A stretch of 27,308 bases of DNA from the NCBI GenBank assembly GCA_020080175.1, contig JAGHQL010000253.1:1-27308 (forward strand), in the 5' to 3' direction. This document shows positions 1 to 27,308 of this stretch, one piece after another. The notes beneath the pieces are model-generated. The model worked only from the letters and a program-made list of their open reading frames with translations, was not told where the DNA came from and ran no database searches. The DNA comes from Glutinoglossum americanum. Its lineage: Eukaryota > Ascomycota > Geoglossomycetes > Geoglossales > Geoglossaceae. The position numbers and the translations under genes are program-made. Each line of letters starts with the position of its first letter. Position 1 is the stretch's first letter.

Positions 1-890
1 GCCACAATATTGTGAGTCTTGCAGTATTCATCAAACTTGATGAATATATGACTTTCATGCCCATCGAGTATTAACATCCGGTATCCACCTTTCTTTAAAG
101 AACAAGTATGTTTGTTGAAATGTTGAATCCAATCCAAGCCTGTCGCATTATCGGTCCATCCATTTTCAGTTGGTTTAACCACCCAGTTGTGTGGTAAGCC
201 ACCTTCAGTATACCAATTGGCAAGGTGAACCGTACCCTTGACCACCAAAAACGGAGGAATATTATGGCCCTCTGCATTGACACAAGCAATAGCAGTAGCC
301 CATTCTCGATTGCCAGGCTGTATTCTCTTTCTTTTCCCCTTTCGATCAGCCTTTGTGACCACCATACTACTAGAAATCACTCCAATCATAAATCCAGTCT
401 CATCAAAGTTCCAGATGTCGCTATCTTGAATACCATATTTAGCCTTCGCATTTGCAACACGTTGAAACCAAACTTCAAGAAGCTTGGGATCTTCGCATTG
501 GGCTCTTTGGTAGTCATAGGAACGTGAAAAACGCGTCTTTAGCTCTGGGGTGCGCTTTACAAGTCGATGCGCCCAGAGCTTACCGATCGGAGGTCCATGA
601 CGCGATGCGAGAATTGTGTTGGCCATATCTTCTATATCCTTCAGTCGGGGAGAAAACTCTCGATCGTCTAGGTCAACTATATGCTGAATAAGAACCTCCT
701 CCTCCAATTCATTTAGAAGTCGAATATTCGGTCTGGTTTCTGCCTTTGATTGTCTGCCGTTCATTCTGGAGCGGAGGGTAGTATCGGATACATCATAAAT
801 TTGTGCAGCTTTATGAACAGTTAATTTCTGGTTGCATTGGAGAGCCTCGATGGCTAGGACTATTCTAGCTTCTTTCGATTGACTTGACAT
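1..890 (-). CDS. pogo/Fot1-type DDE transposase, 5' part (runs off window)
   Basis: The minus-strand frame from ATG at 890-888 is open for 296 codons to the window edge, so the C-terminus lies outside. The N-terminus has a Psq-type helix-turn-helix (about residues 5-45: EARIVLAIEAL, KAAQIYDVSDTTLRSRM), then a CENP-B/Tc5-type DNA-binding region (about 60-125, with LWAHRLVKR). The start of the DDE catalytic domain follows. The first catalytic Asp is in IWNFDETGF (about residue 165) and the second is in MLILDGHESH (about 280); the third lies beyond the edge. Such enzymes cut and paste their own element at TA dinucleotides. I saw no internal stop or frameshift when translating every codon. Base composition is ordinary, unlike the A+T-rich repeats next to it, so this copy has escaped RIP and is probably a recent arrival. 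Whether it is active cannot be told without the missing end. Confidence 0.9.
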   Translation of the reverse strand, partial: MSSQSKEARIVLAIEALQCNQKLTVHKAAQIYDVSDTTLRSRMNGRQSKAETRPNIRLLNELEEEVLIQHIVDLDDREFSPRLKDIEDMANTILASRHGPPIGKLWAHRLVKRTPELKTRFSRSYDYQRAQCEDPKLLEVWFQRVANAKAKYGIQDSDIWNFDETGFMIGVISSSMVVTKADRKGKRKRIQPGNREWATAIACVNAEGHNIPPFLVVKGTVHLANWYTEGGLPHNWVVKPTENGWTDNATGLDWIQHFNKHTCSLKKGGYRMLILDGHESHIFIKFDEYCKTHNIV

Positions 891-989
891 GTTGTGGTTG
901 TGGAGAAAACGCGTGTTGAAGTAGAAAGATAATACGGTTGCGAAAAGTTCACCGCTTGGTGATATTCACCGCTTACTGATAAGCGACGT
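1..989 (-). mobile_element. pogo-type DNA transposon, transposase-proximal end
   Basis: The element carries the transposase at 1-890 and about 100 bp of 5' non-coding DNA. The likely outer end is at 989, directly before a TA at 990-991, the target expected for this superfamily. Read inward the terminal sequence starts ACGTCGCTTATCAGTAAGCG. It includes two copies of TTCACCGCTT (948-957 and 965-974), possible subterminal transposase-binding repeats. The opposite end is outside the window, so the inverted repeat cannot be verified here. Confidence 0.7.
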
Positions 990-1431: not shown

Positions 1432-2095
1432 TGTTACGGTGGCCACTGGGTAAGGGCCCGGTGGGCCACCGAACAAGTTGAGAAGGAGAGCTAGCCTTGA
1501 GGAAGGCTGGCGGAACATAGGAGGGACCACCCCATATGTAATATACTAGGTCGGTGGCATACGAAGGGGGCCCGCAAGGCCCTACCAATGACGTCATGAA
1601 GGAACTCCATATGGGAGCATGGCCAGCGATGAAGGAACTACACGGGCATTATAGGAACTCCACATGGGAGCATGGCCGGTGGTGAAGGAACCGCACGGGC
1701 ATCATAGGAACTCCACATAGGAGTACGGCCAGCGGCGGAAGGCATGGCCGGTGGCGAGAGAACCACATGGGTATCACAAAGGCTTCCCAATGGAAGCACA
1801 GCCAATAGTGAGAGGTCCGTATGCATTCATAGAGGGAACTGAGCAGGTCCCTACCGTGGGCCCCTTAGGGCCATTAGTATATATAGAAGGCCGAGGAGGG
1901 TTCTGAAGGGAACCTCATCGGTCAATATCCATAACCATCCTAGATAGACTATTAAGACCAATAACCCTACCCCCTCTGTCGTGCCACGCGGCCGGCCCTC
2001 CTTGCTTCTTCGTGATCAGCCCTCTAGGGCTAGCTTGGCCCTGACGCCCACGGCATCCAACTTTCGCGGCCCAGCTTACATAAGCCGCCATCACA
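1432..2095 (+). mobile_element. Solo LTR (TGTTACGG..ATCACA), 664 bp, perfect 5-bp target duplication
   Basis: The element starts TGTTACGGTGG and ends GCCATCACA. It is bounded by ATGTC at 1427-1431 and again at 2096-2100, and removing it restores the interrupted host repeat. TG..CA ends plus a 5-bp duplication are diagnostic of an LTR left after LTR-LTR recombination. A TATA-like TATATATAG near 1878 suggests plus orientation. The interior has a roughly 53-bp degenerate tandem repeat (about 1600-1760). It is G+C-rich, so it looks much younger than the surrounding A+T-rich copy. Ty3/Gypsy or Ty1/Copia cannot be decided without coding sequence. Confidence 0.85.
1600..1765 (+). repeat. Degenerate ~53-bp minisatellite inside the solo LTR
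   Basis: About three units share GGAACTCCACATGGGAGCA, then a GGCC(G/A)GC block and a GAAGGAACCGCACGGGCAT block. The same unit recurs in at least five copies at 27065-27308, so the copy number differs between members of this LTR family. Confidence 0.75.
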
Positions 2096-2393
2096 ATGTC
2101 ACATCTCATAGCAATAATGATGGCTGGCTGACTGGTCTGCGTCTAGGTATACAAAAATTAATAAATGAACTTAATAGTTGATGGTTCAGGGTAACTTGAC
2201 ATCAGCTTGATTTAAAATATAAAGTAGACAAAATAGACTTGATTTTAGTAAGTAGAAGATATAGAAGAACTGATCGCTGACCTCTGGCAGAAAGTTAGTG
2301 AGCTACTTATATATACGATAGGCATTCAATAATGAATTAAATGTCATAAAGCAATAAGAATAGATACTTCTGGAATTCATATTGCTATATAAG

Positions 2394-3311
2394 TATCAGG
2401 ACTCTTGATGCCAAGATGACACGAAGGCATTCTGACATCAAAGGTTCTTAGAGAGGTTCGGTAATAGTGTAACATCACATCTCATAGCAACAATGCTAGC
2501 TAGCTAGCTGATCTATGTGTAGATAAGACTTAGGTATATAGGGGCTAATAGATTGACTCAATGGTTCTAGAATAACTATATATTAGTTCAACTTAGAATG
2601 TATAGCAGGCAGGATAGACTTGTTTCTAGCAAGTAGGAAATGTAAAAAACTGATCACTGACCTCCAAGCAAGAGGCCAGTAAGTCATATATATACACGAT
2701 GGCAAACACATAATAACTGGGAGATTATATTGTATATGGATGAGATGTTGTTGATATCACGTGAGCTAATTACCTAGTCATAGAAACTCAGCAGCCTTGC
2801 CAGATAACTGACTATGAGTCATGACAATAGACAAGTTGCTATTTGTATCATGACCCGCAGTTAGTTATCTGGCAAGGCTATTTAGGCCTTTGCAGCCAGG
2901 TAACTAGCTTGGGTTACGCAAACGACAACTCGCTTATATGGCTATATAGATTCTGCAAGTGTATATCCTTATTGCTTTATGATGTCTAGTTTATTGTTGA
3001 ATACCCATTGTATATATAAGTAGCTCGCTGGCCTCCCGCTAGAGGTCAGCGATCAGTCTTTTATATTTCTTACCTGCTAGAATCAAGTCTATCCTACCTG
3101 CCATATATTCTAAGTCAGACTGATGTGTAGTTGTTCTCAAACCATTGAATTAACTTATTAGCTCTTATATACTTAAGTCTTATTTACACGTAGGCCAGGT
3201 AGCTAGTCATTGTTGTCGCTGTGAGGTACGACGTCATACTGTTACTGAACCTCCCAAGAACTCTTGACAGTAAAGTACCTTCATGTCATCTTGATATCGA
3301 GAGTTTTTACA
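2394..3311. repeat. 918-bp imperfect palindrome made of two inverted LTR copies
   Basis: The left arm (2394-2826) and right arm (2844-3311) are the same repeat in opposite orientations, separated by 17 bp. Shared blocks include CCTTGCCAGATAACT near the centre, and CTTAAGTATATA/GACTTAGGTATATA and GATCAGT(C/T)TTT-type blocks further out. The arms have diverged by many transitions. Such a structure could form a large hairpin in single-stranded DNA. Confidence 0.75.
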
Positions 3312-3321
3312 AGTCATCACA

Positions 3322-4440
3322 AGTTTTGATACAGTTGGTTAAACAATTACTATATAGTTAAGTGACTAAGAATGAGTTACAATAATTGAAGGAATCAATG
3401 CAGCTAAGTAAGTGATACTACCCTTTCTTATTCTTACAGTTAAGCTTTATCAAACTAACTAGTATCAAGACCTACTCATTAAATAAATAATTGCTGTTAA
3501 TAATAATAACTGAATAAGAAATGAGTTAAGCTTTAACTAACTTTAGTACTTTAACTACTATATAAAAATGTATATAGAAGATGTCTATTAACTTCTTATA
3601 TTTGATAGTCATAGTAGCTATACAATATCTGAGTTTGATTAGTACTGTATAGAAAACAAGATTATCATATTTTACATACCTTCCCATACCTCACACCTAC
3701 TTTAGCAGCTTGATATTAGCTGCTTCTCACCCCTTAAGTATACATATAAACATTAAATATCTAAGTTTGCATAATAAAATATCTTCTACATCAATAAACA
3801 GAACTTTTTACAAATATACATAAGTATTAGGAAGACAATTTTGTCAAAATAGAATATTCAAGGTAGCTTCTGAGTAACAGAACTAGTCTTTACATGTCTA
3901 GAACATGTCCTGTCATTGCTTACAGTAGTTCAGATACTTTCTCTACTAGAAATAGCAACTGATGCTGAGATTGTATAGATAGTAGAAATACTATATATTA
4001 TTGCTTAGTTTCAGTAACAAGCTTAATATATACAAGGCTTGCTTCATCATCAATTTCAGAGTCCTACTACTTAAGCTATTGACTAACTTGTTAAAGGCTG
4101 TCAGCTAGCAATAAATTTAGCGACAATTTTTACAATAGAGAATAGAAAGCTTTAACAAGCTAGTTAATATTACCAGTATCGTCAGGGGTAGTGATAATAG
4201 TATATTACCTGTAGAGACACTTTACAGACAAAAGAAGGTCAATTGCTTACTATAGAGGCTGAAAAACTACTTTAGTAGATAGAGCAGACAAGGCTAGCTA
4301 GTTGATAGTGGGCACTATCAACATGTAGCAACTGTCACAAACAGGGGCATATAAGGACTCAGTGTACTACTAGATAGTGTGCATCTAATAGATCTATTTA
4401 CTATATATTTTATTGTGGTGGTGTAGAGCTATCTACTGAA
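3322..4440. other. A+T-rich, RIP-like DNA without recognisable gene
   Basis: About 1.1 kb is dense in TA-rich words and stops in all frames. It has no open frame of useful length and no protein similarity I can name. It probably consists of decayed transposon DNA between the LTR nest and the gene island. Composition changes back to normal near 4440, about 270 bp before the first gene. Confidence 0.6.
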
Positions 4441-4708
4441 AAGCTGCCGCGATTTTGGTAGGGCTGACGGATGAGTGATCCTGGCGGATGTTTTTCTTTG
4501 TCACATGTAGGCCAATGGCCGCCCACCCCACCATGTAATATAAAAACCCCGCTCAATTCTAGCTAGATAAGGGACGCACAGGCCAATTCTCACTCCACGT
4601 TCAACAGAACCCCTGCAACATAAAAAAACTTCAAACACGGAAACCTGTACACCTGAAACAGCGGCTTACGTCCGATCTCCCTCCTATTCCATCGCCACAT
4701 CCTCCAGA
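4441..4708 (+). promoter_or_regulatory. Promoter and 5' leader of the formyltransferase gene
   Basis: This G+C-normal stretch lies between the A+T-rich block and the ATG at 4709. It contains a TATA-like TAATATAAAAA at about 4537-4547, then a C- and A-rich leader (CACTCCACG, CAACAGAACCCCTGCAACA), typical of fungal 5' untranslated regions. I saw no clear Gcn4- or Bas1-type site that I could defend. Confidence 0.45.
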
Positions 4709-5596: not shown

Positions 5597-5970
5597 TCAA
5601 GTTGTTATTTCGACGAGGCCACGAACTCCTCTTGCCTTTCACCCGCGGCCGGCAGCTCTGCATCTTACTCGTTACTAGGCTTTTCATGAAATCCCATTCT
5701 TTCTTGAGTAAAGCTTAGAAGTGCCACAGTGTGAGATTGAGCAGGATAACACCGGTTAACACAAGGAGGTATAACTAAAATTGCGTGTCACGGACACCTA
5801 CCACGGGATGAGAACCTGGGTGGGTAGCTAGACTTCTATAAAACAGACTGTAATTTTCCTTTTCGCTCATCTTGCTTCCTCCCCTCTACATGTCATCTAG
5901 ACACGAGAATAAAAAGATCTCTTTCCTGAGCTGAATTCTCACACACAGGCCCTCGAGCCAGCCCGGCACG
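5597..5970. other. Intergenic region with promoter-like elements
   Basis: The region between the formyltransferase stop and the next candidate ATG (5971) holds a TATA-like CTATAAAACA near 5837 and pyrimidine-rich stretches (TTTTCCTTTTCGCTC, CTTCCTCCCCTC). These are plausible core-promoter and leader features for the downstream gene. No open frame here looks coding. Confidence 0.4.
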
Positions 5971-7067
5971 ATGTCTCGCAGAAGCCCTGCAGCCCTAGAG
6001 GCAAGTGAGAGTGAACGATGTAAGTGTATTCTCGGTCTTGCTTGCTAATGGAAGCTACTCGACCCCAGCCACGTGTCTGCGGATTGCCGGTCTAACTATG
6101 AACTCTTAGCGCTGGAGAATACGGAAGCACTGGCTCTGGACGCTGCCAATTACAATCACTCACTCAATCAGCAGCGTTTGTTGCGCAGGCACGAAGCACA
6201 AGACTGGTGGCTGAGTTTGTGTCGCCAACCAGATAAGGGAGCCAACTTATCAACGCATTTGATCTCCTACGGTCCCGAGATTCACACCGATCAACATTCT
6301 TGCAAGCGTTCTTCCGACATGACGAGCAAGCAAGGGTGTTTGGATGATCCTGTAGCTATAATGAATGATGGAGACATTTGTGAATTGTCCGATCTTGGTC
6401 ACACAGAATTCACATCGCCGACCAAGACACACCGCAGCGCAGCATTAGAACAAGACTATGGGCTCTATTATTGTACAGAGCCAGGCTGCTATCGGGCTGT
6501 TCACAAATATGCCTTCACGATTGGAGGGTATAATCGCCACATGCTCGCCCACAAAGAGGGCCCGCAATATTGCGTGTACCCTGAATGCGCAGCAGACACC
6601 CCCAAAAGCGTACTTCGGAAAGGAATGCCTTCAGGACCATGTGGGAAGGATGCACAAGGGCCCACGACAACGCCACGTGGGTCGACGTCCCGTCGTCCGC
6701 CATAAGGCATCTTCCGGCGTTCCAGTGGATGAAGCTACAATCAAAGGATGTAGAGAGAAGATGCAATACAGAAACTGCAGTGACAGCGAAGACCATAAGG
6801 AAGGCGAGACGGACGACTACAAAGATTACCGCAATGGGCCAGGCACTTTGGGTCAGTCTAGAGGCAGATTCACCTGTCGAAGCCTCCGAGCGTATGCACA
6901 GTCATGCCGCCAGAAGGACGGCCACGAAACCACCATCAACGAGTACATGTCGTATCTGATGAACCAAGCTTCCCAGGTACCAAGATGCGGTTGTAGCCAT
7001 TGGCCACGTCGATTGTGCTAACTTCTGAGAATAGGAAGTTTCTGAAGACATCAAAGCGGAAAGACAA
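5971..7067 (+). CDS. Zinc-finger/exonuclease-like protein, N-terminal C2H2 part (frame interrupted)
   Basis: This is the N-terminal part of the gene continued at 7150. A likely first exon starts at ATG 5971 (MSRRSPAALEAS). The best-looking donor, GTAAGT at 6020, does not keep the frame of the next exon (from about 6069), while a weak GTGTAT donor at 6024 would. The frame at 6069-6600 carries a C2H2 finger, YCTEPGCYRAVHKYAF..YNRHMLAHKEG (about 6472-6555). A second finger begins YCVYPEC and continues FGKECLQDHVGRMHKG only after a +1 shift at the C5 run 6599-6603. An acidic linker and INEYMSYLMNQASQ lead to an intron (6977-7034), a small exon (7035-7067, EVSEDIKAERQ) and a second intron (7068-7149). 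The join into 7150 is out of frame by one, so this model is incomplete. It was probably one host gene; whether it is functional is open. Confidence 0.5.
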
Positions 7068-7149
7068 GTAACATTGGATTTCAATATCAGTATGATATGT
7101 ATGAATGTCTGCATCGTTTTCTGTTTCTCGGTAACTGACGTTTCTGCAG

Positions 7150-8858
7150 TGATGTTCCCTGAACTTCAAATTATTTTGCCGGCCAGAAAGTCTGCTTGTC
7201 AGGGCGCAGCGCTGCCATCCTTTGATGGTTATTCCGGGGAAAGCTGCCCTAGCGGATACAATGAAACCATTTGGACATGCAAACTTTACAAGAATCAGAG
7301 AACTGAAGGTCTCAGCCTGTCGCGCCGTTGCGATAAGTGCAGATTCCGACAAAAGATCTATCAGGAACTTAATAAGAAAGGACTTTATACGCCTGAGTCT
7401 GGATCCTCCTGTACGAAGTGCGATCGCCCACGTGCTCTCCCGAGGTCCAAGCTGTGTCCTCTTCATGCCATTCGACATAGGCACGGTTCGAGTCTCAAGA
7501 TTTCATCGGATACCGCTGAACAGATCGACTCCATCCTAAGCCGCAGTCGCGTGTCCCTGGAAAGGGCCTGGAAGCCAGTAAATGATGCCTTCAAGCTTCT
7601 GAATTCTTCAAGCAGTCCCAGCCACAACTACAAAGACTACGTTCTTGTTGACTTAGAATTCTCTGTTTTCAATGAAGGTGTTGTAGAAATCTGGCAAGTA
7701 TCAATCGTTGATCTTCTTGGCAGGCCCCTCGTTGAAGTCTTTATTGACTGGGAAGAGAGCGAGCGCGAGAAGCACGGCGATGGCTACCAGCATCGACTGA
7801 ATAAGCCAGAATTTGCTACGATGTGGGACTTTTACCATCTCAGAGCCATGGAACGCAAGTCTGGCAAAAGAACTTTGCCGAATTGGACAATGCAAGAACT
7901 TGCCGAAGAACTCAAACACCACGTCAATCGAGAAACGACCTTCATTGAGTACAGCTATGGTGGTGTCGATTTCAACGTTCTTTCCAAAGGCCTATCGCAT
8001 TTCGGGTATCCAAACCTTCTTGGCTCGGTCAAGCACCAATCTCTCCCGGCAATCCCTACCCTCAAGAAAGCTATGCCTGGTATCACATCATGGAGCCTCG
8101 AAACCATTTTCCCGGCCTTCTTTCCTGGCAGCAATCTGGTGGATGGAAACCACGACGCTAGGGTTGATACTCGCCAGCTTGCAAAGCTGCTTGCGCTACG
8201 TTTTGAGCTGGCCGAGCCATTAGATGGCCGCAGCGACCGCCTACTTTCTGTCTGGCCAGTTCATGAGAGGGGATTTCATGGGAGCCCTAGCCAGCGACAG
8301 ACCAGCATTAGAGCAGAAGAAAGTGTTGACGCTGTCCCTGAGCCAACAGGGTCTATTGCTTTAGGTGTGAAGCCAGGCACTGCCGGCAAAAACATGAAAC
8401 ATCGTGCTGGGACTTGGGATCTGGACGAAGTTGAATTCTGCCGAAAGATAGGAGACAAAATGAAAGAGAAGGGGATCATGCATCCTGATGGCGGTTTCAC
8501 TTGCAATTGTGGTCATACCTGGGGCCAGAAAACTTTCTGGAAGCACATCCACATGTGGGAAAAACATTGCCGTTCAATCCAACATCGCTCCGCAAATCCT
8601 GATGATCCTTACATCTGTATTTGCGGGGAACTCCTTGCAAATGCGAGAGAAGATCAAAAACATGAGCAGTCTCCAAAACATTCTGCATGGAGTGAAGCAT
8701 ACGAAAGAATCAGATCCGGATTGCTGTTAAGTTTTGAACTCAGGCAGAGAGAACTTGCATCCATTTGTGTCCAGGGCGAGGGATTCAGGTTCGACTGGCG
8801 ATGTACTTGCGGCAGTGCAATCTTTGTTTTACCCCCCGACTGGCATGCCTCCAAATAA
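7150..8858 (+). CDS. DEDDh 3'-5' exonuclease-like core with flanking zinc modules
   Basis: The frame is open throughout; the first in-frame ATG after the acceptor CAG (7147-7149) is at 7152. Order: CxxC pairs (RRCDKCRFRQK, SSCTKCDRPRALPRSKLCPLH, about 7326-7470), a Ser-rich linker, then a domain with the DEDDh signature. Motif I is D-x-E in VLVDLEFS (Asp codon 7650), motif II is Asp in YGGVDFNVL (7968), and motif III is His-x4-Asp in NHDARVDTRQLAKLL (His 8151, Asp 8166). These are the metal-binding and general-base residues of RNase T/DnaQ-fold nucleases, so a metal-dependent exonuclease activity on RNA or DNA is inferred, not proven. After it come repeated CxCG zinc modules (FTCNCGHTW..HIHMWEKH, YICICGELL..H..H, WRCTCGSAIF). 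The stop at 8856 follows a C6 run (8832-8837). Removing one C would continue into the downstream zinc modules. I do not recognise this architecture as a named family. Confidence 0.7.
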
Positions 8859-9547
8859 AGCCTTAAAAGTACACATCAACGGACCTTGCGCACTCCGCAA
8901 ATTTGCCTATAGCCCGCAGCCTGCCGAACTTGGGTATACCTGTGAATGCGGCACTATCCTGACGTCGAAAACGAACTCAGCTGGGAAGCCAAATACGTTG
9001 AAACATCACAAGACATTGATCTTTCACCAGGCATTCCTCGATTCCAAAGATTCAGAATGTTCTGAGTGCAAACTTCTCGTCGATCAGTCAGTTGGAATTG
9101 CGAGACACCTTGCGAGCCCATGCCATAAGTTCCTCAAAAACTTGTCGGATGAAGAACGTGTTAGGTTTTTAACTTCTTCCCTTGGGCTTGGAACAATCCT
9201 CCGGGTTTGTCACATTTACCAAGCACCCAAGGAGACAGTCAAAGTCGATTGCCCCGAATGTGGATTGGCGTTCTGGAAAAAAGATTTATGGGAACATCAG
9301 ACTAATCATCACTTTGGGACCGTTTGTTTTTTTCCCCGCATGCGACCACAGGTTCGTATCTCACCTTTACGAACACCTCGATTCCACCACTATGGCAAAA
9401 AATGGTGGGATGTTACATTTTTCTTGGCCAGGCTGCGAGAGTGGAGAAAGCAAGCTACGACAGAATAAAGTCGTACGTGCGTGCATGCGCAAACACCAAG
9501 GTAGGGCAAGGAGGCGTTTCATCAATCAAACTACCGGGTCGGGTTGA
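8838..9547 (+). CDS. C-terminal zinc-module array of the exonuclease-like protein (frame interrupted)
   Basis: In the next frame after the C6 run, coding continues (TGMPPNKALKVHINGPCAL) with further Cys/His units: YTCECGTIL..HHKTLIFH (8937-9030), ECSECKLL..ARHLASPCH (9055-9126) and DCPECGLAFWKKDLWEHQTNHH (9247-9312). After the T7C4 run at 9327-9337 the sensible frame shifts again by one. It gives FFPACDHRFVSHLYEHLDS, then PGCESGESKLRQNK, and stops at 9545-9547. The Cys/His spacing resembles the units upstream of 8858, so this is the continuation of the same protein and not a separate gene. Zinc binding and nucleic-acid or protein contact are inferred. Confidence 0.55.
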
Positions 9548-9835
9548 TTTGCGAGATATACAACAGAGAATGCGGTTTTGAAGGCGACGGAATAATAAGA
9601 TAACCTTTGTCCACTTCCAATATCAACCTCTCTATTTTCTTTGTGATATTCCACTTATGCATCTGAACCCCCAATCCTCACTTTGAATGCCATTTCTCTT
9701 GACTATACATGCTCCCACGTTGAGACTGGCTGATAGAAGAATGAGATCCTCATCATATATTTGTCCCCAGCAGAGGTTAGGGACAAGTAGGCACACAGAT
9801 CTTAAGCTGCTGCCTGTCCACCTGTGGGAGGAAGC
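9548..9835. other. Convergent intergenic region
   Basis: About 290 bp separates the 3' ends of two genes facing each other (plus gene ending 9547, minus gene ending 9836). It should hold both 3' untranslated regions and poly(A) signals. AATAATAAGATAA near 9590 is A-rich enough to serve the plus-strand gene. I see no gene. Confidence 0.45.
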
Positions 9836-12019
9836 TTATTTGACTCTATGCTGTACCATGGTCCAGCGTGTGCGTACTGCGGCTGGAGTCCTGCCTGGGA
9901 ACTTCTTGAAGATCCAGTCCCAAGACTTGTCCTCTTTCTTGTATGCCAGCAAGCGCTGCTCGTCTACAGCTTCCCATGGGATATTCATCCTCGTGCTCGA
10001 GCCTTGCTTTTCTTTACTCGAACACCCGTCATCGCCGCTGCTGAGATCAGGATCGCTGTCGCTCAATCCATCATCGTCATAGCTACTTGACGGCTCACTT
10101 CCTTCCGATGGCAGAGCCCCAGCATCAACGGCTCTGCCATCCTGGGGTCGGGTACGCGTCGTATCCCTGTGGATACGGCTTACCTCAGCGGCAGTCACCA
10201 CAGTCGCTCTGCCAAACAAGGGCCGGGACGATGTATGCCGGCTGAAGCCAGTCAAGAGGAACGAATGTTGCTGGAACGGCTTGATCGTGAAGTCGTCAAT
10301 CTTCCCAACATAGCCAATGCTCTCGATGAGTCGGGTAAGCTGGCTGAAAGAGACTCCCCCGTCGCAACTGTCCCGGACCACCGCTGTAAAGGAGCAGTAG
10401 TGTTGGGAGTGCGGACGGAACGTAACCTCGGTCAGCGTCGGTAGGATATCACTAGACGATCCGCCCAGGTTACTGCAGTCAGATGGCATCTCTGTATCCA
10501 TGGTCTGCAGCGCCGAAGGTGCCGGCGAAGGCAATCGACCCTCGGCACTAGATACTGTGGTGACTCTCGAAGTCTGATAAAAGGGGGGTATGATTTTGAA
10601 AAGTGCCGATGGAGTTTGGAGTGTGGTCTATGTTGGCGGGTAGACCTCTGCTTAGGATGGCACTTGCGCTTCTTTTGCATTGGGCCGTCATGAGATGAGG
10701 ACGGCCGTTTCCGTTTCATAGGACATGGTTCCTCATCATCGTCCTCTAGGTCGGCTTTGTTGTCATTAAGGTCGTTGTCGCTGTCACCATCACTACAACT
10801 CCCCGCATCATCATGACTTGACATTGGCAAGGGATCGCAGGACGGTAAGAGGGCTGGCCTTGGGCTTCCATCTTCGTTGGATGGATGGGTATCATCGACG
10901 CTTTTGGTCGTCACCACTGCTGTCGGATCATTCACCTCCTGCCGCTGACTCTTCCCCTCATTAACCGGATCGGTATCAAGTATAGAGCCAAGCACCTCCA
11001 GCTCGTGTTCGTCTGCTGAGCTTCGACCTGCATGAAGATGATCCTTATGAACGGGCTGGTTCTCTGGTGACGCTCTGGCGCAAAGTGACAGCTGATAGCG
11101 ACGAGCAGAAGAGCACATCGTGGCCTCGGATCTGGCGCAGACTGTGCATTGGCCTGCTGCGCTGGTGTGGTCGTGCAATGGCTCGCTCGAGGCACGGGAA
11201 GAGGAAGGAGTATGAGGGCGCATGGAATCGGACGTCGAAGGTTTTTGTTCAGAGCGCCGCAAGCGCTGTGCTGTCTCGAGGAAGTTATCAATATCGTGCC
11301 ACACATCAGGATTGGAAGGAGGGGCCGGAGTTGTCGACCCGACGGCAGTCTCTAGGTTATCGAGAAGGCTCTCGTCTGCTGCTGCACTTTCGGCATAAAG
11401 ACCACCGCCATCGACTTCGGCTTCAGAGGCACTTGAGTCGTCATCGCCCAGCAGCACAATTGGATCCCCTACGCTATGTTAGAGAAACTGGTTGTCATTT
11501 CCACGACAGAAGGTAGAGGGCGTGCTCACCTAGACCACCGCCTGAGTTATCGCCTGCTACTGACCCGTTACTACCTCTCTCCTCTACAGTTACATCCTTA
11601 ACTCCGCAGGCTGTGCTGTTCGGACTCTTGTCCTCCGCTGCAAAGCCCTCCTTCTGTAGCGTGGTATATAGTAGTTGTTCGATGGGAGGAAGGTCGCAGT
11701 CATCGTCGTTTTCGTTGTTATAGTACCCAGTGCTAGTCTCTACTCAGATATCCACAGGTTAGTTACTATTGCTACCAGCCCAAACATCTCCATCTCAAAG
11801 CATACTTCGGATTCCAAGTTTGTCACCTCCATTATCATCAGCAGCAGTAGCTGCTGCTGCTGGTCGGGGCGTACTGAGAGCCGCACCGCTCGGCTTGATG
11901 CGCTGGATCTTGTCGAAGATGCTGACTGGCTTCAGGGCAGGTTTGCGGCGAGCTGTTGCGCTCTTGGAGCGTGGAGCAGTTGGCACATAAGTATAAGAAA
12001 TGGGGACAAAAGTGGCCAT
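9836..12019 (-). CDS. Acidic, Ser-rich protein with C-terminal Myb/SANT DNA-binding domain, three exons
   Basis: The start is ATG at 12019 in GAAATGGCC context. Exons are 11806-12019, 11530-11739 and 9836-11468, separated by introns of 66 nt (GTATGC..TAACTAAC..TAG) and 61 nt (GTGAGC..CTAAC..TAG). The first exon reads MATFVPISYTYVPTAPRSK and the second includes DCDLPPIEQLLYTTL. The third opens with DPIVLLGDDDSSASEAEV. It then has a long low-complexity acidic/Ser region, a basic stretch (PMKRKRPSSS, QKKRKCHPKQR; probable nuclear signal), and a globular block (TLTEVTFRPHSQHYCSF to KPFQQHSFLLTGFSR). It ends in a single Myb-like repeat with spaced Trp residues (IPWEAVDEQRLLAYK, SWDWIFKKF, RTRWTMVQHRVK). 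A nuclear, DNA-binding regulatory role is inferred. The frame changes near the G6 run at 10583-10588, so the gene is broken there or the assembly is. From memory, similar proteins form a repeated family in Penicillium. Confidence 0.75.
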
Positions 12020-12675: not shown

Positions 12676-13316
12676 ACAATCCAATCAGCAGTTGCTCCAG
12701 CAGTTCCTCCAAGTAATGCTCCTGGCAGAGCCTCGCATCATCCCGCCGTCTCGAATTAGCCCAGATCCGCGCAATCAAGACGAATACGAAACGTGCTGCG
12801 GCAGAAGGGAAACTCATCAAGAAGCTCTCGACGCGTCATCCACCAGCGGCGCAGCTAGGTAGAAGCCAGGCCGCGTCGTCGTGAGGCATTTCCGCGATCG
12901 GTTGTTGTGCCGCAACGAGTGCAGGCCAAGCCTGGCATCTCAGTCTCTGGGGCGCTCTGCTGTGAGGGATGGTGATGATGCGAAAACGAAGCAGATTGCG
13001 AGAAGGTTTGGACACTGCAAAGCTCGTAACTCAGCCAATGCGAGGCGGGCTTGTGAGGGGATCAGTGTCACAGTTGCTCAGCAGCATCAAAGCTGTAGGG
13101 GATGATCACGGATTCTGGTTGAAGCTGCCCCGCACCTCTTTGGCGTGGTCTTCTCAGCTGCGGCGTGGCCGATCAGGGGAGCCTAGTAGAGTAGATGGAT
13201 TCTAGGCAGAAGGGCTGAAATGCGAAAATCGAGCACCAGACGTCGCGAGGTGGAGGATAGTTGGGTTGTTGGAAAAGGAAGAAAGAAGAGAAGGAGCGAG
13301 CGATAGAGAGGCGCGA

Positions 13317-13324
13317 CTTTTATA
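13317..13324 (-). promoter_or_regulatory. TATA box (TATAAAAG) of a minus-strand transcript
   Basis: Read on the minus strand, GTATAAAAGTCGCGCC is followed within about 50 bp by a CT-rich stretch (CTCTCTATCGCTCGCTCC, CTTCTTTCTTCC). This is a classic fungal start-site arrangement. The transcript would run left into 12020-13290 and toward the Myb gene. Confidence 0.5.
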
Positions 13325-13395
13325 CCTCGCGAAAGCGGCGACGGGCCCGTGCGCACACCTTGCCCAATGCGGGGGGTCGTGGTTTCCTGATGCGG

Positions 13396-13497
13396 GCTTA
13401 CCTCAGCAGGCTCAGGCCCTCGGTTCGGCACAGCACGCTAAGTTCAATATGGTATTACTCTCACAGAGGGCCTGAGCGCTGGATGCAGCATTGGTAA
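13396..13497. mobile_element. Small foldback MITE, copy 1 (~100 bp)
   Basis: The left arm CTTACCTCAGCAGGCTCAGG and the right arm CCTGAGCGCTGGATGCAGC..GGTAAG are inverted copies around a short centre. The element forms a hairpin and has no coding capacity. A related copy lies at 13816-13918. Confidence 0.6.
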
Positions 13498-13815
13498 GTA
13501 CCATTAGGAAGTTTGGGTGAGGTATTGCGTAAGTTTATTGAGTTCAAAATAAGTAGTAAACTAGTAATAATATACTATAAAGTAGTTTAACAAGACTTTA
13601 GATATTCTTATTACTAAAATACTTAAATATAATAAATTGTGCAATATCTATAAATCAGTTTAATTAGAATTTAGTGAGGCAGAGCCTAAGTGCAACTTTA
13701 TATTACTTAAGAAAAAGCTCTTTAAACTAGTAAGAAAAAATACTTTTCTAGTACCTAATATATACTTATAAAATATTTCTTAGCATTGAGTAAAATTTTT
13801 AATATACTAAACTGT
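13498..13815. other. A+T-rich spacer between two MITE copies
   Basis: About 320 bp of TA-rich, stop-dense DNA. Nothing recognisable beyond general RIP-like composition. Confidence 0.55.
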
Positions 13816-13918
13816 GGCATTCAGCACTCAGGCTCTATGACAGAGCATGATTCTTTTTGGTTAACTTCATGAGCTTTGTCATAGGCCTGAGCCTGCTGAA
13901 GTAAATGCAAGCTTACCA
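13816..13918. mobile_element. Small foldback MITE, copy 2 (~103 bp)
   Basis: The arms GCACTCAGGCTCTATGACA and TGTCATAGGCCTGAGCCTGC pair with each other. The right end reads AAATGCAAGCTTACC, matching the CTTACC..GCAGGCTCAGG arm of copy 1 in reverse. The two copies therefore belong to one non-autonomous family. Confidence 0.6.
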
Positions 13919-14123
13919 TCTAGTATTTTACTATATATAAAAAAATTAATTCTACTATATATTTTATATTATAAAGTAAGAATTCAATTTCTAATTTTAT
14001 TAAATATAATTATTTAAGTGAGATTTATTTATATTTATATTAATATTTTATCAAATTTTAATTTATTTATTTATTATATAATAAAATTAAAAACTGTTAT
14101 TAGTAAAAAATATTTTTATTGTT

Positions 14124-14454
14124 TGTTAAACCTTAGTATAGGTTTGATGAGTTGCAGTGGCAGTGTGCCAGCATCTATACAGTTGGTATAACCGCTACAG
14201 CTAAACGATTAGGTTATATGGCATTATACCTTTATAGTGCGGCTATATAGAGAGCTAGAATTTGTTGTCATTCAATATGTAATAGAACTAATTGCTGTTC
14301 TCCTAATGAGGCCAGCGACCCCCTTCAAAAGGGGTGCAGAGTCTATGATACATGATGTCATACCTGAAAGCCCTCAGAATGCAGGTGCTGTGCTGGCACC
14401 AATCCAGCAAGGCAAGTGGAAGCAGTATAGGCAATACTAGCCACATCCCTTATA
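14124..14454 (-). mobile_element. Solo LTR, TGTAAGGGATG family, copy A (reverse)
   Basis: This is the reverse copy of the roughly 333-bp repeat best defined at 15752-16084. It starts TGTTAAACCTTAG and ends CATCCCTTATA as read on the plus strand. No coding sequence is attached. It keeps more G+C than the forward copies and no clear target duplication was found. Confidence 0.65.
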
Positions 14455-14823
14455 CCCTTGTATCATCAACTTACAATCTCCTGATACAACGAGGCTGCGG
14501 CTCCTTTTTTTCTTATGACTGGCTCAGCCAATACAGGTTGCTGCATTTATTATGTGAGGCTCAACTTTTATGAGGTCATAGAGTTGTGATTCCTCATATT
14601 GAGACATTTATAACATTCAATTCTTTTAAACTAAAGCTGATTACTTTTTAATTAAAAAGGCACTTATGAATTTTATCTTTTTTAGTACTTAGCAAAGTAT
14701 ATATTTTTTTACTTTACTTTATTTTTTTTAAGAAAATTATTACTGTTATAAATATGATGCAGAATAGAACAAAATTATTATTTGGTAGTAGGAACAAGAA
14801 GTTATATGAGGAAAAAAGGTAAC
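14455..14823. other. A+T-rich DNA, nothing recognised
   Basis: About 370 bp between an LTR and the first GGGTCGGGT element. It includes poly(T) runs and no coding signal. Confidence 0.5.
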
Positions 14824-14916
14824 TAGGCTGCGCATCGGGTCGGGTAGGGTCGGGTTTTGGCACCTTCAACCCGGCCCCTTGGCGACCCGGGTACCCGAAA
14901 CCCGTTGTGCAGTCTA
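14824..14916 (+). mobile_element. GGGTCGGGT-rich MITE, copy a
   Basis: Ends TAGGCTGCGCATCGGGT and ACCCGAAACCCGTTGTGCAGTCTA form imperfect terminal inverted repeats beginning at TA dinucleotides. It is 93 bp, very G+C-rich inside an A+T-rich block, and non-coding. Two more copies follow within 400 bp. Confidence 0.7.
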
Positions 14917-14987
14917 ATAACATCAACAAAACAAACAATACTAGTATTATAGAGCAAACTTATAATAGATAATAGTAATGTTATAAA

Positions 14988-15206
14988 TAGACTGCGCAAC
15001 GGGTTTCGAGTACCCGACCCGACCCTGGGTAAAACCCGGCCATCGGGTAGGGTAGGGTCGGGCAGGGTATCCGGCCAGGCATTTTACCCCTTCTAGCAGT
15101 CATTTTAAGGGTCCTACGGCATCAATTAAAATTTTGACCTTTTTTTCAATTACTCAATTTGGCTTTTGAAGGTGACAAAACCCAGCCCGACCCGATGCGG
15201 AGCCTA
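14988..15206 (-). mobile_element. GGGTCGGGT-rich MITE, copy b (longer form)
   Basis: This is in reverse orientation relative to copies a and c. It begins TAGACTGCGCAACGGGTTT and ends CCCGATGCGGAGCCTA. At 219 bp it is about twice as long as its neighbours, with an A+T-rich middle. It shares the CGGGTAGGGT and GGGTAAAACCCGG blocks with copy c. Confidence 0.65.
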
Positions 15207-15210
15207 CTAT

Positions 15211-15321
15211 TAGGCTGCGCATCGGGTCGGGTAGGGTTGCCAAAATCACAACCCTACCCTACCCAATGGCCGGGTTTTACCCAGGGTCGGGTCGGGTACC
15301 CGAAACCCGTTGCGCAGTCTA
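15211..15321 (+). mobile_element. GGGTCGGGT-rich MITE, copy c
   Basis: A 111-bp element from TAGGCTGCGCATCGGGT to CCCGTTGCGCAGTCTA, four bases after copy b ends. Its ends match copy a almost exactly. The inner part is self-complementary (CCGGGTTTTACCC). Confidence 0.7.
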
Positions 15322-15746
15322 ATAATAATAAAGAAGTTGTCAAGATATCAGGTCAGGTGAGCAAAATAGTTCTTTACTTTGATATAGAATATTAAAAGAG
15401 AGTTACTGATTTAGAAGTAATGAGGACCTATTTTTAGACTATTAATAAAATACCAACAGCTAGAAAAATTGATATAATTAATATAGTACTTAGTGTCATG
15501 GATAAGATGTAAATGAAAAGTATTAGACTGTTAGAAGAATAAATATATTAAGTAAACCTATTTGGCTAGGCAGGTCAACTATAATAATGCTTAATTTCAT
15601 AACAATAATAATGTTATGAAGTAAATTTATAATATTTAGTAAATAACTTCAGATTATAGTAAATGTATTTTCTGATTTAGTTATTATATTAAAAATTTAA
15701 TAAAGACTCAAAATAGTAAAATAAAATAAAGAATACCTATTGTTTA
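15322..15746. other. A+T-rich decayed repeat DNA
   Basis: About 425 bp with no open frame. The piece at about 15500-15590 (GGATAAGATG, GAAGAATAAATATATTAAG, CTATTTGGCTAG) recurs inverted at about 17455-17535, so this is part of a dispersed element, probably internal or flanking retrotransposon DNA. Confidence 0.5.
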
Positions 15747-15751
15747 TACTA

Positions 15752-16084
15752 TATAAGGGATGCGGCTAGCGTTGCCTATACTACTTCCACTTGCCTTGCT
15801 GGATTGGTACTAGTGCAGCACCTTCATTCTGAGGGCTTTCGGGTGTGATGTCATGTATCGTGAATCCCGCACCCCTTATCAAGGGGGTTGCTAGCCTCAT
15901 TAGGAGGACAGCAATTAGTTCTATTACATATTGAATGGCAACAGATTCTAGCTCTCTCTATATAGCTGTATCATGAAGGTGTAACACTATATAACCTGAT
16001 CATTTAACTGTAGTGGTCATACTGACTGTGTAGATGCTGGCACACTGCTACTGTAACCCATCAGACCTATACTAAGGTCTAACA
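15752..16084 (+). mobile_element. Solo LTR, TGTAAGGGATG family, copy B with 5-bp target duplication
   Basis: A 333-bp repeat with TACTA on both sides (15747-15751 and 16085-16089). The ends as seen are TATAAGGGATGCGG and AAGGTCTAACA, corresponding to TG..CA ends in the family. The 5-bp duplication identifies it as a solo LTR. It is old, being A+T-shifted. Confidence 0.75.
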
Positions 16085-16128
16085 TACTAATAAAGTACTA
16101 GATAACTAATAAAGCTATAATCTAAAAT

Positions 16129-17347
16129 TATAAGGGATGTAGCTAGCATTGCTTATACCACTTTTACTTGTCTCGCTGGATTGGTACCAGTACAGTGCCT
16201 GTATTCTGAGGACTTTCAGATGTAATGTCATGTATTACAGACCCCACACCCCTTTTGAAGAGAGTCGCTAGCTTTATTATATAAGAGATGCAGCTAGCAT
16301 TACTTATACTGCTTTCACTTGTCTTGCTGAATTGGTGCCAGCATAGTACTTACATTCTGAAGGCTTTTGAGTATGACATAATGTATCACAGACCTCGTAC
16401 TCCTTTTGAAGGAAGTCACTGGCCTTATTAAAAGAACAGTAATTAGTTCTATTATATATTAAATGACAATGGATTCTAGCTCTCTATATAGTTACACTAC
16501 GAAAGCATAACTATAAAAAATATGGCTAGTATTGCCTATACTACTTCTACTTGCCTCATTGGATTAGTACTAGCATAGTACCTTTATTCTAAAAGCTTTC
16601 AGATGTAATGTTATGTATCGTAGACCCTATACTTCTTTTAAAGAGGGTCACTAGCTTCATTAGAAGGACAGCGATTAGTTCTATTACCTATTGAATAACA
16701 ATAAATTTTAGCTCTTTATATAGCTACATTATAAAGATATAATACTATATAATCTAATCATTTAGCCATAGCAGTCATACTGACTATGTAGATCCTGGTA
16801 TACTACCACTGTGTCACGACACATAAAGACAGGGCTTGTAAGCTTAGATCAGTATAGGGTCTGTGCTTAAGCCAAGCTCTCAAGCTCCTTTTCTGACTGA
16901 CAGAGTTAATTCTTCAATCTCTATTGGTCAACACATCTCTTGTATATAGTTCATCTAATAGAAGCCCCTCGATGGCTCATACCCATTCTCCTACTCAGCC
17001 TATCTACCTCTGACATCCCACTGGACCTCCTGTCGAGCTGTGACACCCATTAGAGCTCGAGAACTCTTTCGTGAGCCCACGGACGACCTTCCGAATGACC
17101 CCCTTGAGCCTCGAGTACCCGCAGCACCCCCCTAGGACCTGACACACTGCAACTTATCAGACCTATACTAAGGTCTAATAGTAATACCGTATAACCTGAT
17201 CATTTAGCTGTTGCGGTCATACTAACTATGTAGACATTAGCATACTACTACTGCAACCTATTAGATCTATACTAAGGTCTAATACCAACTATGTAGATAC
17301 TGACATACTACTACTATAACTTATTAGACCTATATTAAGGTCTAATA
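16129..17347 (+). mobile_element. Nested LTR stack of the TGTAAGGGATG family (copies C, D, E and tails)
   Basis: Three same-orientation heads follow one another: C (16129-16279), D (16280-16511) and E (from 16512). E is complete and ends at 17180, but is interrupted by another LTR at 16812-17144. After E comes a tail (17181-17284) that fits exactly where D stops, then a second tail (17285-17347) attributable to C with a piece missing. The 5-bp sequences flanking E (ATAAC and GTAAT) are near-identical, consistent with insertion of E into D. All are non-coding fossils. Confidence 0.65.
16812..17144 (+). mobile_element. Solo LTR (TGTCACGAC..CCTGACA), 333 bp, perfect 5-bp duplication
   Basis: It starts TGTCACGACAC and ends GGACCTGACA, with CACTG at 16807-16811 and 17145-17149. 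A TATA-like TGTATATAG near 16932 suggests plus orientation. It sits inside LTR copy E and retains high G+C, so it is younger than its host. Two reverse copies are at 18984-19316 and 26664-27005. Confidence 0.85.
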
Positions 17348-18265
17348 CCTTATATATATAAAAATCTCTTCTTACTTTACTTTACTCTTTATATAACCTC
17401 TTGTCTTTATACACTAAATAAATTTCTTTTTACAAGAATTCTAACTTTATTTGCCTGAATTTGTCTAGCCAAATAGATTTACCTAATACACTTATTCTTC
17501 TAATAACTTAATACCTTCCCTCTATATTCTATCCATAACAAATAATAGAAGTTTGAACTTGTGATGGTTACTAATATAAGCTGGGTTGTAAAGATTAGAT
17601 ATTATAGGTATTAAGATTGAGCTAGTCCTAAAGGACCAGTTATAAAGAAGTAAAGAGAGCCAGCTATATGATATAATAGAAAGAATAAGTTTATTAGTTA
17701 TAATAGTCTATTTAGAATAGTTATAGGTATTGACTGATAAGGTTCCCTTTTAAACTCTTTTCAGTTTTCTATATATACTAATAGTTCTGAAAAGTCTGGA
17801 AGTAGAAGTTTACTTAGCTCTCCTCTAATTAACTAATAGTTAGATTATTTATTAGTTCTATATAGATCTTTTAACTATAGCTTTTTACTTGTATAGTTTC
17901 TTCATCATTGATTATGTTCTCATATAGAGTTCTTATGATACTCATATAGTTTCTTTACTACTATCTATACTCTTATATAAAGTTTTTATACTACCTATAT
18001 AGTTTTTTTATTATCAGTCATACCCTTCACTACTAGCTGTACTTCTATATAAAGTTCCTTTATAATATCATTAGTAGAACTTTGTAGGCCTTATTCATAT
18101 ATTACCAACTTAGTGTATTATATATAAGATAGTTTTTTCTATACTTTACTAACTATTTTTAAAGCTCATTCTCTTTTTTAATTTGTTCAATGACTAATCA
18201 AGCCCTTACTTAATAGCTACTATAATAGAACTATAATAAGAATAGTAAAAATGCTTTATATTAAG

Positions 18266-18739
18266 TGTAAGAATTCTCAATACCAAGGTGACATAAAGGT
18301 ACTCTGATGTTAAAGACTTTTAGGAGTTTAATAATAGTGTAACATCATACTTTGTAATAATGATAATGGCTGACTGACTGGTCTACATCTAAGTAAGGTT
18401 TGAATATACAAAAACTAATAGATTGACTTAGTAGTTTGATAGTTCAAAGATGATTAAATATCAGCCTGATTTGAAATATAGAGTAGGTAGAATAAACTTG
18501 ATTCTAATAAATAAATAATATAAAAGAACTAATTGCTGACCTTTAGCAGAAGGCCAGTGAGTTACTTATATATACAATAGGTATTTAATAATAGATTAAA
18601 CATTATAAAGTAATAAGAATATATGATTGTGAAATTTATATAACCATATAGACTAGTCACTATTTATATAACCTGAGTTAGTTACCTAGCTACTGAGATC
18701 TAAATAGCCTCACTGAGTAACTAACTATGAGTCATGACA
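18266..18739 (+). mobile_element. LTR-like repeat, TGTAAGAAC family, single copy
   Basis: A 474-bp copy from TGTAAGAATTC to GTCATGACA, which defines the family length used for the nest at 1351-3321. Flanking bases do not give a clean target duplication. Decayed and non-coding. Confidence 0.6.
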
Positions 18740-18983
18740 CAAGCTAACTTTAAGAAGCTAGTTATAAAGAAGCAAGAGAGGCTAGCCATATAACATAATA
18801 AATAGAGTAAGTTTATTAGTTTTGATAATCTATTTAGAATAGTTATGAGTATTAACTAATGAAGTTCTCTTTTAAACTTTTCTTGATCTTCTATATATAT
18901 TAATAATCTTAAAAGACTTGAGGGTAGAAGCTTGCCTAACCCCCCTCTTATTAGCTAATAGTTAGGTCATCTATTAGCTCTAT

Positions 18984-19316
18984 TGTCAGGTTCTAGGGGG
19001 GTGCCGCGGGTGCTCGAGGGTCGAGGGAGTCGTTCGGGAGGTTATCCGTGGACTCGCGAATGAGTTCTCGAGCTCGAAAGAGTGTCATGGCTCGGCAGGA
19101 TGCCTGGCGGGATGTCAGAGGCAGGTAGGCTGGGTAGGTGGATGGATATGGGCCACCGGGTAGCTTCTATTAGATGAACTATATACAAGAGGTGTGTTGA
19201 CCAATAGAGATTGAAGAATCAACTCTGTCGATCAGAAAAGGAGCTTGAGAGCTTGGCTTAAGCACAGACCCTATACTGATCTAAGCTTACAAGCCCTGTC
19301 TTTATGTGCCGTGACA
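18984..19316 (-). mobile_element. Solo LTR, TGTCACGAC family, reverse copy
   Basis: 333 bp from TGTCAGGTTCTAGG to GTGCCGTGACA, flanked by TCTAT and CCTAT, a near-perfect 5-bp duplication. It is G+C-rich inside A+T-rich DNA, hence young relative to its host. Confidence 0.8.
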
Positions 19317-19712
19317 CCTATGTAAGCCTTTTAATTATAGTCCTTTACGTATTTATATATGTAGTTCTTTTACTAGCTATACTTTCAGACTGTACTTCCA
19401 TATAAAGTTTTTATAATATCTATATAGTTTCTTCGCTAGTCCTACTTCTATGTAGAGTTCTCTATAATATTATTAGTATAACCATATAAGCTCTATTTAT
19501 ATATTATCAGCTTAATATATTATATATAAAGTGGTCTCTCCTATACTTTACTGATCTTTTTTAGAACTAACTCTCCTTCTTAACTTATTTAGTAGTTAGC
19601 CAAGCCTTTACTTAGTAGCTATTATGATATAAAAAATCTATACAGAGCTAGTTCAGTTCTGACATTTACAATATCCAATCTTTATAATTCAGCTTATATA
19701 AGCAACTGTTAT

Positions 19713-19909
19713 ATTAAATTAATATTTAGTTATCCTTAAACTATTAAGTTAATTTATAATTCTTATATATTTAAGTTTTATTTATATATAAGCTAGTTAG
19801 TTAGTCATTGTTATTATTACAAAATATAATATTTATACTACTATTGAACCTTTAAAAATTCTTAACATCAAAGTACCTTTATGTTATCTTAATATTAAAG
19901 GTTTTTATA
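19713..19909 (-). mobile_element. Truncated LTR-like fragment, TGTAAGAAC family
   Basis: Reverse fragment of about 200 bp ending AAAGGTTTTTATA. It matches the first part of the family (words corresponding to TTAACATCAAAGTACCTTTATG). The remainder is absent. Heavily A+T-shifted. Confidence 0.55.
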
Positions 19910-20492
19910 ATTATTTCTTTATTATAATTCTTACTACTACTTACAAAGGAAACAATTATTAAAAGAATATTTTTTATAACATAAAAATTTTTTCACTTAT
20001 CTTCTTTAATTTACCCTTTAGTTAAACTTAAACTGTAGATATCAAACTTTCTAACTTTGCAATAAATACTGTCTCTCCCTGGTATCAAATTTAATCTATA
20101 AGCTTAGAGACAGGCATACAGAATTTAGACCATCTAGTAATTAAACTATTGAATAATTATCTTAGTAAGTAGGTTCATCAGTATTATCACAAACCCTTTG
20201 CATGATAGAAATAGCTGACATAAGTACGCAAAAATAAACCCGCTATGGAAGTCATTGTATCTGTTTGGGCAACCCGTTCAACTTCACAATAAGCAGGCTT
20301 GCAGAAGGTGGTGAGTCCGCACCCGGTTTTGGTGAGCTCGCCCCGAAAAAAAAAAACCAACCAACGCGGTTCGTTGGACACGAAAAGTTAATATTCTATG
20401 CACTGGCTGGGTACCAAGCCGCACTTGCAACTTCCTTCAACCCCGCTGTTACCTGAGAAAGATATGGATTTTGGGGGTATCAAGAGTTAAAT
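19910..20492. other. Boundary region from A+T-rich repeats to gene-like composition
   Basis: Composition turns from A+T-rich to normal at about 20200. An A10 run lies at 20347-20356. A short motif TGGTATCAAA at 20083 resembles the primer-binding sequence of copia elements but has no adjacent LTR in the correct orientation. No gene is supported. Confidence 0.4.
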
Positions 20493-24781: not shown

Positions 24782-25640
24782 GTTGACGATTGACGATGTT
24801 GGGATATGGAGTTGGTGACGAGATGTGTTCGACGGGCGGAAGTGACGATATATCCCAGCTCCTCGTCAACGCCTAGACCGCGCCCGTCCGTGGGGATACG
24901 GCAAATGACTGGCAGAGTTCGTTGCCGAACGGGATGGTCTGACGATCCCGCCCCCTGGCAGGCACGGGAGACGGGCCAGGTTTCTCGCGCCAGTTGTGCA
25001 GCAACGTGCATCCACAGGGGGGCTCATCGCTTGCTCCCGTCCTAGCGTGTGCTATCGTGGGGAGAGCAGGCTGCTCCTGCACGGAGAGGGGACTGTCGCG
25101 ATCCGCCATCCGAGTGACAGGCGGGGTGTACGGCCGCGGTGCAAAGGAGTCGCGCGCAGCCGAGGACGACTGTCAAGACGTATTCCAGGCGACACTGTGT
25201 GATGGACCTCCATATTCTCGCTGCTTGAGACATCGCCGCCGGTGGTTGGATATTGTGGAGATGCCAGCGGCGTCAGGGCGCAACTCCAGCCATGATGCAG
25301 ACTCGAGACGGACTGCTGGAAACGACCCCACAGCGTCCCAAGATGCTCTGCAATTCGTCCTGGTTGTTCCGTTCTATTGAACCTTGCCCTCGATTGGGGA
25401 GCAGGAACGCCCAGTGTGTCAGTGGGATGGCTTGGATTCTCGCGGGCCGAAGGATTGATGGGAGCCGAGTCAAGTGCGCCATGTTCCGAGCCAATGGCGA
25501 CAAGCGTCCTGGGCGGGACACTAACCCGCACCGACCCAAAGGCGTATTTCACAAAGGGGCGATAGCACAATCGCCTTTGGTGACGGGGACGGTCGGGGCA
25601 GGCATCTTGGCTCTTGGTCGTTGTAGTCAAAAGCAGCTCT
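24782..25640 (-). promoter_or_regulatory. Upstream region of the DUF7703-type gene
   Basis: About 860 bp of G+C-rich DNA lies before the A+T-rich block. The leader just before the ATG reads CATCGTCAATCGTCAAC on the coding strand. Many open frames overlap here on both strands, but they mirror each other, have no domains and are typical of G+C-rich non-coding DNA. No defined operator was identified. Confidence 0.4.
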
Positions 25641-27005: not shown

Positions 27006-27308
27006 GTAATACACTAAGCCGGTGACATACGAGGGGGGCCCGCAAGGCTCCACCAATGACGTTATCATAGGAACTCCACATGGGAGTACAGCCGGCGGAG
27101 GAACCGCACGAGCATTAGAGGAACTCCATATAGGAGCACGGCCGGCGGCGAAGGAACCGCACGACATCATAGGAACTCCACATAGGAGCACAGCCGACGG
27201 CGAAAGAACTACATGGCATAATAGGAACTCTACATAGGAGCACGGCTGGTGACGAAGGAACTGCACGGGCATCATAGGAACTCCACATAGGAGCACGGCC
27301 AGCAGCGG
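27006..27308 (+). mobile_element. Partial TGTTACGG-type LTR with minisatellite, cut by window end
   Basis: From GTAATACACTAAGCCGGTG it follows the inner part of the solo LTR at 1432-2095 (shared GGGGCCCGCAAGGC block). It then has at least five 52-53-bp units (starts near 27065, 27117, 27171, 27223 and 27276) built on AGGAACTCCACATAGGAGCA. The LTR's first part is absent and its end is beyond the window. Confidence 0.75.

Follow-up and report, generated by a model that had tools for sequence, protein, structure and literature searches.

A divergent DEDDh-like exonuclease core flanked by zinc-finger-like modules in an apparently interrupted gene of Glutinoglossum americanum

A stretch of 27,308 nucleotides from the fungus Glutinoglossum americanum (contig JAGHQL010000253.1 of assembly GCA_020080175.1; hereafter, the window) carries on its forward strand, at 5971-9547, a multi-exon gene that runs from an ATG at 5971 to a stop codon closing its last frame. 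Judging from the letters of this gene and of a relative in the same genome, the locus probably goes back to a fungal family of divergent zinc-array DEDDh nucleases, of which this copy either is decaying or carries sequencing errors. The domain order, namely C2H2 fingers, a CxxC/C3H-like module, a DEDDh core and a CxC(G) array, is well supported. The catalytic kind is already known, but the architecture is new to the databases and literature searched. An earlier sequence-only reading had described a single gene combining zinc modules with a DEDDh core; modules and core are both present, but the gene is not plainly open, with three introns and three frame changes, and the frame changes escaped that reading.

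The DEDDh-like core and its zinc-finger-like modules

Five signature residues stand in the DEDDh order that had been proposed: D7650 and E7656 (in VLVDLEF), D7968 (in VDFNVL), and H8151 and D8166 (in NHDARVD, an H-x4-D). In the order and type of these elements (D-x-E, D, H-x4-D), and in a profile-profile match over the core, the domain is like the DnaQ/RNase T-type DEDDh exonucleases of PF00929; it differs from them in going undetected by PF00929, in being flanked by zinc modules, and in showing little similarity across the ~100 residues between ExoI and ExoII. Because the Pfam and PF00929 searches missed the core, we built a DEDDh profile of our own from 19 proteins (three PF00929 loci of the own genome and 16 bacterial loci) and ran it unfiltered against 2,431 targets, comprising the cores of the gene and of its paralogue, 429 own-genome open reading frames (ORFs) of at least 100 amino acids from 20 stretches, and, for either core, 1,000 shuffled versions. 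An ORF in the C69 stretch ranked highest at 16.8 bits; next came the gene core with 10.5 bits (E 0.042) and third the paralogue core with 6.7, while the best shuffle scored 5.3. Both cores outrank every one of the 2,000 shuffles and 428 of the 429 ORFs, and the sole ORF above them is, by its coordinates, a PF21762 DEDDh_C protein (locus L009) encoded elsewhere in the same genome. When gene and paralogue were combined into a two-sequence profile, hhalign matched it to the DEDDh profile with 83% probability and a score of 40.1 over 173 columns, with the ExoI and ExoIII residues aligned; 200 column shuffles reached at most a score of 20.8 and a probability of 2.6%. By that E value and that probability, similarity to DEDDh exonucleases is detectable over the domain and weak in absolute terms. 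In the profile check suggested at the outset, Pfam RNase_T gave no match, and the home-made profile and hhalign gave matches above controls.

The paralogue provides the second line of support for the core. It is the one weak match (E 0.03, 45% over 45 amino acids) in a search of the own genome (25.8 Mb, 317 contigs), and it lies on contig C283, at 1501-3694 of locus L007. This distant paralogue is laid out like the gene: Cys/His fingers at the N-terminal side are followed by an acidic linker, a KRC..C pair and a C3H-like module, and then by DLVILDLEFN, YYDLALL and NHRALVD. The order and nearness of these parts suggest that fingers and core belong to one gene. All five signature residues are common to the two loci at a core identity of 28% (MAFFT), and local alignment against 500 shuffles gave z = 13.8 for module plus core and z = 13.6 for the core. 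Homologues without these residues had been named in advance as telling against a DEDDh nuclease; the one homologue examined, this paralogue, keeps all of them. Its C3H-like module has a weak Pfam match to zf-C3Hc3H (E 0.031, below the cut-off). A further own-genome match, on C37 (E 0.71), was judged to be chance once its frames were read. The frame adjoining the C283 paralogue resembles what we take to be an aspartate-semialdehyde dehydrogenase.

As to the modules, the two N-terminal C2H2 fingers of the sequence-only reading are present, as is a CxxC pair, the second finger being split by a frame change (Table 1). With a C-terminal module defined as C-x1-4-C ... H-x2-6-H/C complete within a single frame, there are 5 complete modules, whereas 2,000 shuffles of the same pieces gave a mean of 1.0 and a maximum of 4; CxCG/CxxCG motifs likewise number 5, against a mean of 0.16 and a maximum of 3. 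The C-terminal array therefore exceeds chance. The total of six to seven claimed earlier is reached only by counting in two split modules (8802-8889 and 9325-9376). From their motifs, the Cys/His modules would be expected to bind zinc.

Three ordinary introns (about 6020-6109, 6977-7034 and 7090-7149) separate exons 1 to 4, and in all of them a CTRAY branch site precedes the acceptor by 15-18 bases; the first has the donor GTAAGT and the branch site CTAAC. For most of its length, exon 4 has coding-like codon use by a model built from 67 long ORFs of the own genome, which come from 20 stretches and total 24,670 codons.

Table 1. Features of the gene, in window coordinates
Feature	Position	Strand	Basis or remark
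Exon 1	5971-6019	+	ATG to donor; read from sequence
Exon 2, first part	6110-6600	+	frame start mod 3 = 1; frame change beside CCCCC (6599-6603); codon score weakly positive
C2H2 finger 1 (C-x4-C ... H-x4-H)	6472-6552	+	complete
C2H2 finger 2	6571-6655	+	split by first frame change
Exon 2, second part, acidic linker	6611-6976	+	frame mod 3 = 2
Exon 3	7035-7089	+	introns on both sides frame-consistent
Exon 4	7150-8840	+	open, 563 codons from 7152
CxxC pair	7329-7340	+	aligns with CVSC of the paralogue
C3H-like module (C-x2-C ... C-x2-H)	7410-7484	+	motif
DEDDh-like exonuclease core	7626-8234	+	profile statistics and signature residues
C-terminal module 1 (CNCG...H...H)	8502-8567	+	
C-terminal module 2 (CICG...H...H)	8616-8681	+	
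C-terminal module 3 (CTCG...H...C)	8802-8889	+	split by frame change at CCCCCC (8832-8837)
C-terminal module 4 (CECG...H...H)	8941-9027	+	
C-terminal module 5 (CSEC...H...H)	9058-9126	+	
C-terminal module 6 (CPECG...H...H)	9250-9312	+	
Possible C-terminal module 7 (C...C...H...H)	9325-9376	+	split by frame change at T7 (9327-9333)
Stop codon, last frame	9545-9547	+	

Frame changes, contrary evidence and rival explanations

A number of results weigh against a divergent DEDDh nuclease at this locus, or against its protein being functional in this strain. The core has no match to Pfam RNase_T (PF00929) in hmmscan up to E 10, and it is absent from the own-genome PF00929 search up to the same E value, which listed three other loci. 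No exon piece found anything over the cut-off in Pfam, NCBIfam or PHROGs. A PDB sequence search with the protein of the gene returned no match, hence no DEDDh chain, and the two-sequence profile found a single PDB entry, at E 1.4, which lies outside the DEDDh proteins. Among 20 DEDDh sequences compared singly by hhalign, the highest probability was 7%, for an own-genome PF00929 protein that we take to be REX4-like; no DEDDh subfamily can be named on such a value. Two cuts of the core folded by AlphaFold2 without an alignment came out at low confidence (predicted local distance difference test scores of 37.0 and 35.6). On its own, the Cys module aligns between gene and paralogue at z = 3.5, its score of 47 lying below the best shuffle at 49, and a search of the own genome with the C-terminal array returned only the window gene, so that the array was not found beside the paralogue. 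Codon scores are weak in the N- and C-terminal parts, where other frames in places match or beat the frame of the gene (6450-6600 and 9180-9300, for example). Finally, the gene changes frame three times, near 6600, 8840 and 9330, and the core region of the paralogue has three in-frame stops.

The frame changes call for a reading of their own. All three fall at or beside a homopolymer (CCCCC at 6599-6603, CCCCCC at 8832-8837 and T7 at 9327-9333), and finger 2, C-terminal module 3 and possible module 7 each run on across one of them. Introns are the obvious alternative, and frame-consistent GT-AG stretches of 45-120 bases do exist at the three sites (9, 12 and 5, respectively); in none of the 26 does a CTRAY branch site lie at the distance seen in the three modeled introns, 15-18 bases from the acceptor, and one has CTAAT at 50 bases. 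Since the modules continue across the changes, and since the candidate introns lack the branch site at its usual distance, frame breaks seem likelier than unusual introns, which we disfavor. Their exact positions are not fixed by the codon model because rival frames score as high or higher in places. This copy thus appears to have been interrupted three times, by recent decay or by sequencing errors at homopolymers, and the frame changes make its function doubtful.

How far should decay be taken? It is nearly an even call, leaning slightly to the negative, that a zinc-array DEDDh nuclease was formerly the product of this family, that both copies found in this genome are dead and that the feature is a relic. 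The three frame changes, with no well-formed intron found at any, speak for such a pseudogene, as do the stops in the paralogue, which looks decayed. Moreover, the assembly is not generally broken, to judge from other genes: PF00551 covers two pieces of the neighboring formyltransferase gene, at profile positions 58-115 and 114-181, which join over an ordinary intron, and the HSP70 profile is matched by two genes, over 570 and 598 positions, with no stop (of the 14 HSP70 matches listed, 8 are without an internal stop and 6 have one). Decay of the gene itself is therefore favored. However, exon 4 remains open throughout with mostly coding-like codon use, all the changes fall at homopolymers or next to them, places in which sequencing errors also cluster, so that local error fits as well, and the 26 GT-AG stretches leave room for unusual introns. 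The signature of repeat-induced point mutation (RIP), present in the flanks, is also absent from the gene: TpA/ApT is 0.54 for the gene and 0.62 for the paralogue locus, neither RIP-like, but 1.30 at 13-20 kb and 1.19 at 1.5-4.5 kb. RIP as the cause of the stops in the paralogue is unsupported, its locus having normal indices.

Two further explanations leave the frame aside and concern the core. An RNase H-like domain that has lost its nuclease activity, in a protein that binds nucleic acid through its zinc fingers or serves as a scaffold, would account for a core so divergent that Pfam does not recognize it and for the dominance of the zinc array in the C-terminal half; we nonetheless consider it unlikely, as five catalytic residues have been kept in two copies whose cores are only 28% identical. 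Quite improbable, and disfavored, is the notion that the DEDDh residues are a coincidence in an unrelated zinc-finger protein or a transposon-derived gene. The want of any significant public-database match is consistent with coincidence, and so are the AT-rich, RIP-like flanks and the DDE_1 transposase at the contig edge; the shuffle and decoy controls and the signature residues of the paralogue argue against it. A search of the own genome with the DNA of 5900-9600 lists only that region itself, and the multiple copies expected of an active transposon were not found.

Surroundings of the gene on the contig

Along the window, GC-normal gene islands are flanked by AT-rich blocks at 1500-4500 and 13000-20000, in which GC falls to as little as 28% and the dinucleotide indices are RIP-like. 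A DDE_1 transposase frame with HTH_psq, itself not RIP-like, runs off the contig edge at 3-965 (-). A similar minisatellite unit of 52-53 bp (AGGAACTCCACAT...) occurs near both contig ends, at 1600-1734 and 27064-27307, and near the right end it overlaps a repetitive open frame at 26859-27308 (-). Downstream of the nuclease-like gene is a Myb-like gene at 9836-11478 (-), named from a weak Pfam match below the cut-off, whose frame changes near a C6 run at ~10590, an intron or another frame break. A DUF7703 protein (E 7.7e-48) is encoded at 23780-24865 (-).

Known nucleases and a possible role in RNA turnover or genome defense

As a rule, DEDDh exonucleases take their specificity from partners or from a single accessory domain; CRN-4 has a zinc domain. 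A fungal parallel has been published in Cryptococcus, a basidiomycete. Its Znf3, of ~1,515 amino acids, joins three zinc fingers to a putative ribonuclease domain, the type of which is unstated in the accessible text of PMC4778953, and is needed for RNA interference (RNAi) and transposon silencing; the likeness is one of description only. The same source describes Neurospora QIP as a DEDDh exonuclease of the RNAi pathway, likewise fungal, and its accessible text does not mention a zinc array (PMC4778953; again compared by description only). Outside the fungi, TOE1, a deadenylase of the DEDD type that carries a C3H zinc finger according to the accessible part of PMC10493513, is also a eukaryotic protein uniting a DEDD nuclease with a zinc finger, but by that description it has one C3H finger, in contrast to the fingers on both sides and the C-terminal array found here. 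CRN-4 and the nidovirus and arenavirus ExoNs likewise have a DEDDh core with zinc-binding elements, the viral enzymes with one or two zinc sites rather than an array (PMC7968707, as far as its accessible text goes). Among the literature covered, which leaves out most subscription papers, and in the accessible parts of the sources, we found no description of a fungal zinc-finger DEDDh protein of this architecture.

Within the own genome, the PF00929-type proteins include one PAN2-like and one oligoribonuclease-like protein, both named from PDB matches. The PF21762 DEDDh_C protein, presumably of the Gfd2/YDR514C-like kind, is likewise a divergent fungal DEDDh domain whose ExoIII is also H-x4-D. 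It is nevertheless a separate gene: hhalign relates it to the two-sequence profile with a probability of only 0.15%, and a PF21762 search of the own genome up to E 10 lists it alone and not the core of our gene. Beyond this genome, no relative was confirmed in IMG/VR (with the core, the C-terminal part and a part of the paralogue as queries) or in bacterial and archaeal genomes (with the protein of the gene), and tblastn of the core against phages gave 11 records, ten of them listed at E 5-7. The suggestion of a new family is thus supported as far as these searches reach, since the profile libraries gave nothing over the cut-off and no relative was confirmed among viruses or bacteria; the own genome is the only fungal genome that they covered.

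The core would be expected to fold like RNase T/DnaQ. In DEDDh enzymes, the histidine acts as general base. By analogy with the two-metal-ion mechanism described for the DEDD superfamily (PMC10493513, in its accessible part), the core may trim nucleotides from 3' ends, while the Cys/His modules, binding zinc, may hold either a partner or a nucleic acid, for which RNA is the likelier, and so direct target choice. Piwi matches number 7 in the own genome, spread over four contigs, with four containing stops and one under the cut-off; matches to RNA-dependent RNA polymerase (RdRP) number 16, spread over six contigs, again with one under the cut-off. A small-RNA pathway is therefore plausible as context, no more. 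A fuller version of the proposal, to which we give a low but not negligible probability, is that this is an undescribed fungal DEDDh family whose own C2H2 and CxCG arrays choose the RNA, be it transposon, viral or RdRP-made double-stranded RNA, for the core to trim, and that this species is losing the family. A role in RNA turnover or genome defense, as first suggested from the sequence, may follow from these parts.

The finding also suggests that current profile libraries overlook divergent fungal DEDDh proteins. If the proposal is true, a cellular DEDDh core set within a zinc-module array would amount to a self-targeting trimming enzyme, and a candidate for a part in RNA decay or genome defense in fungi.

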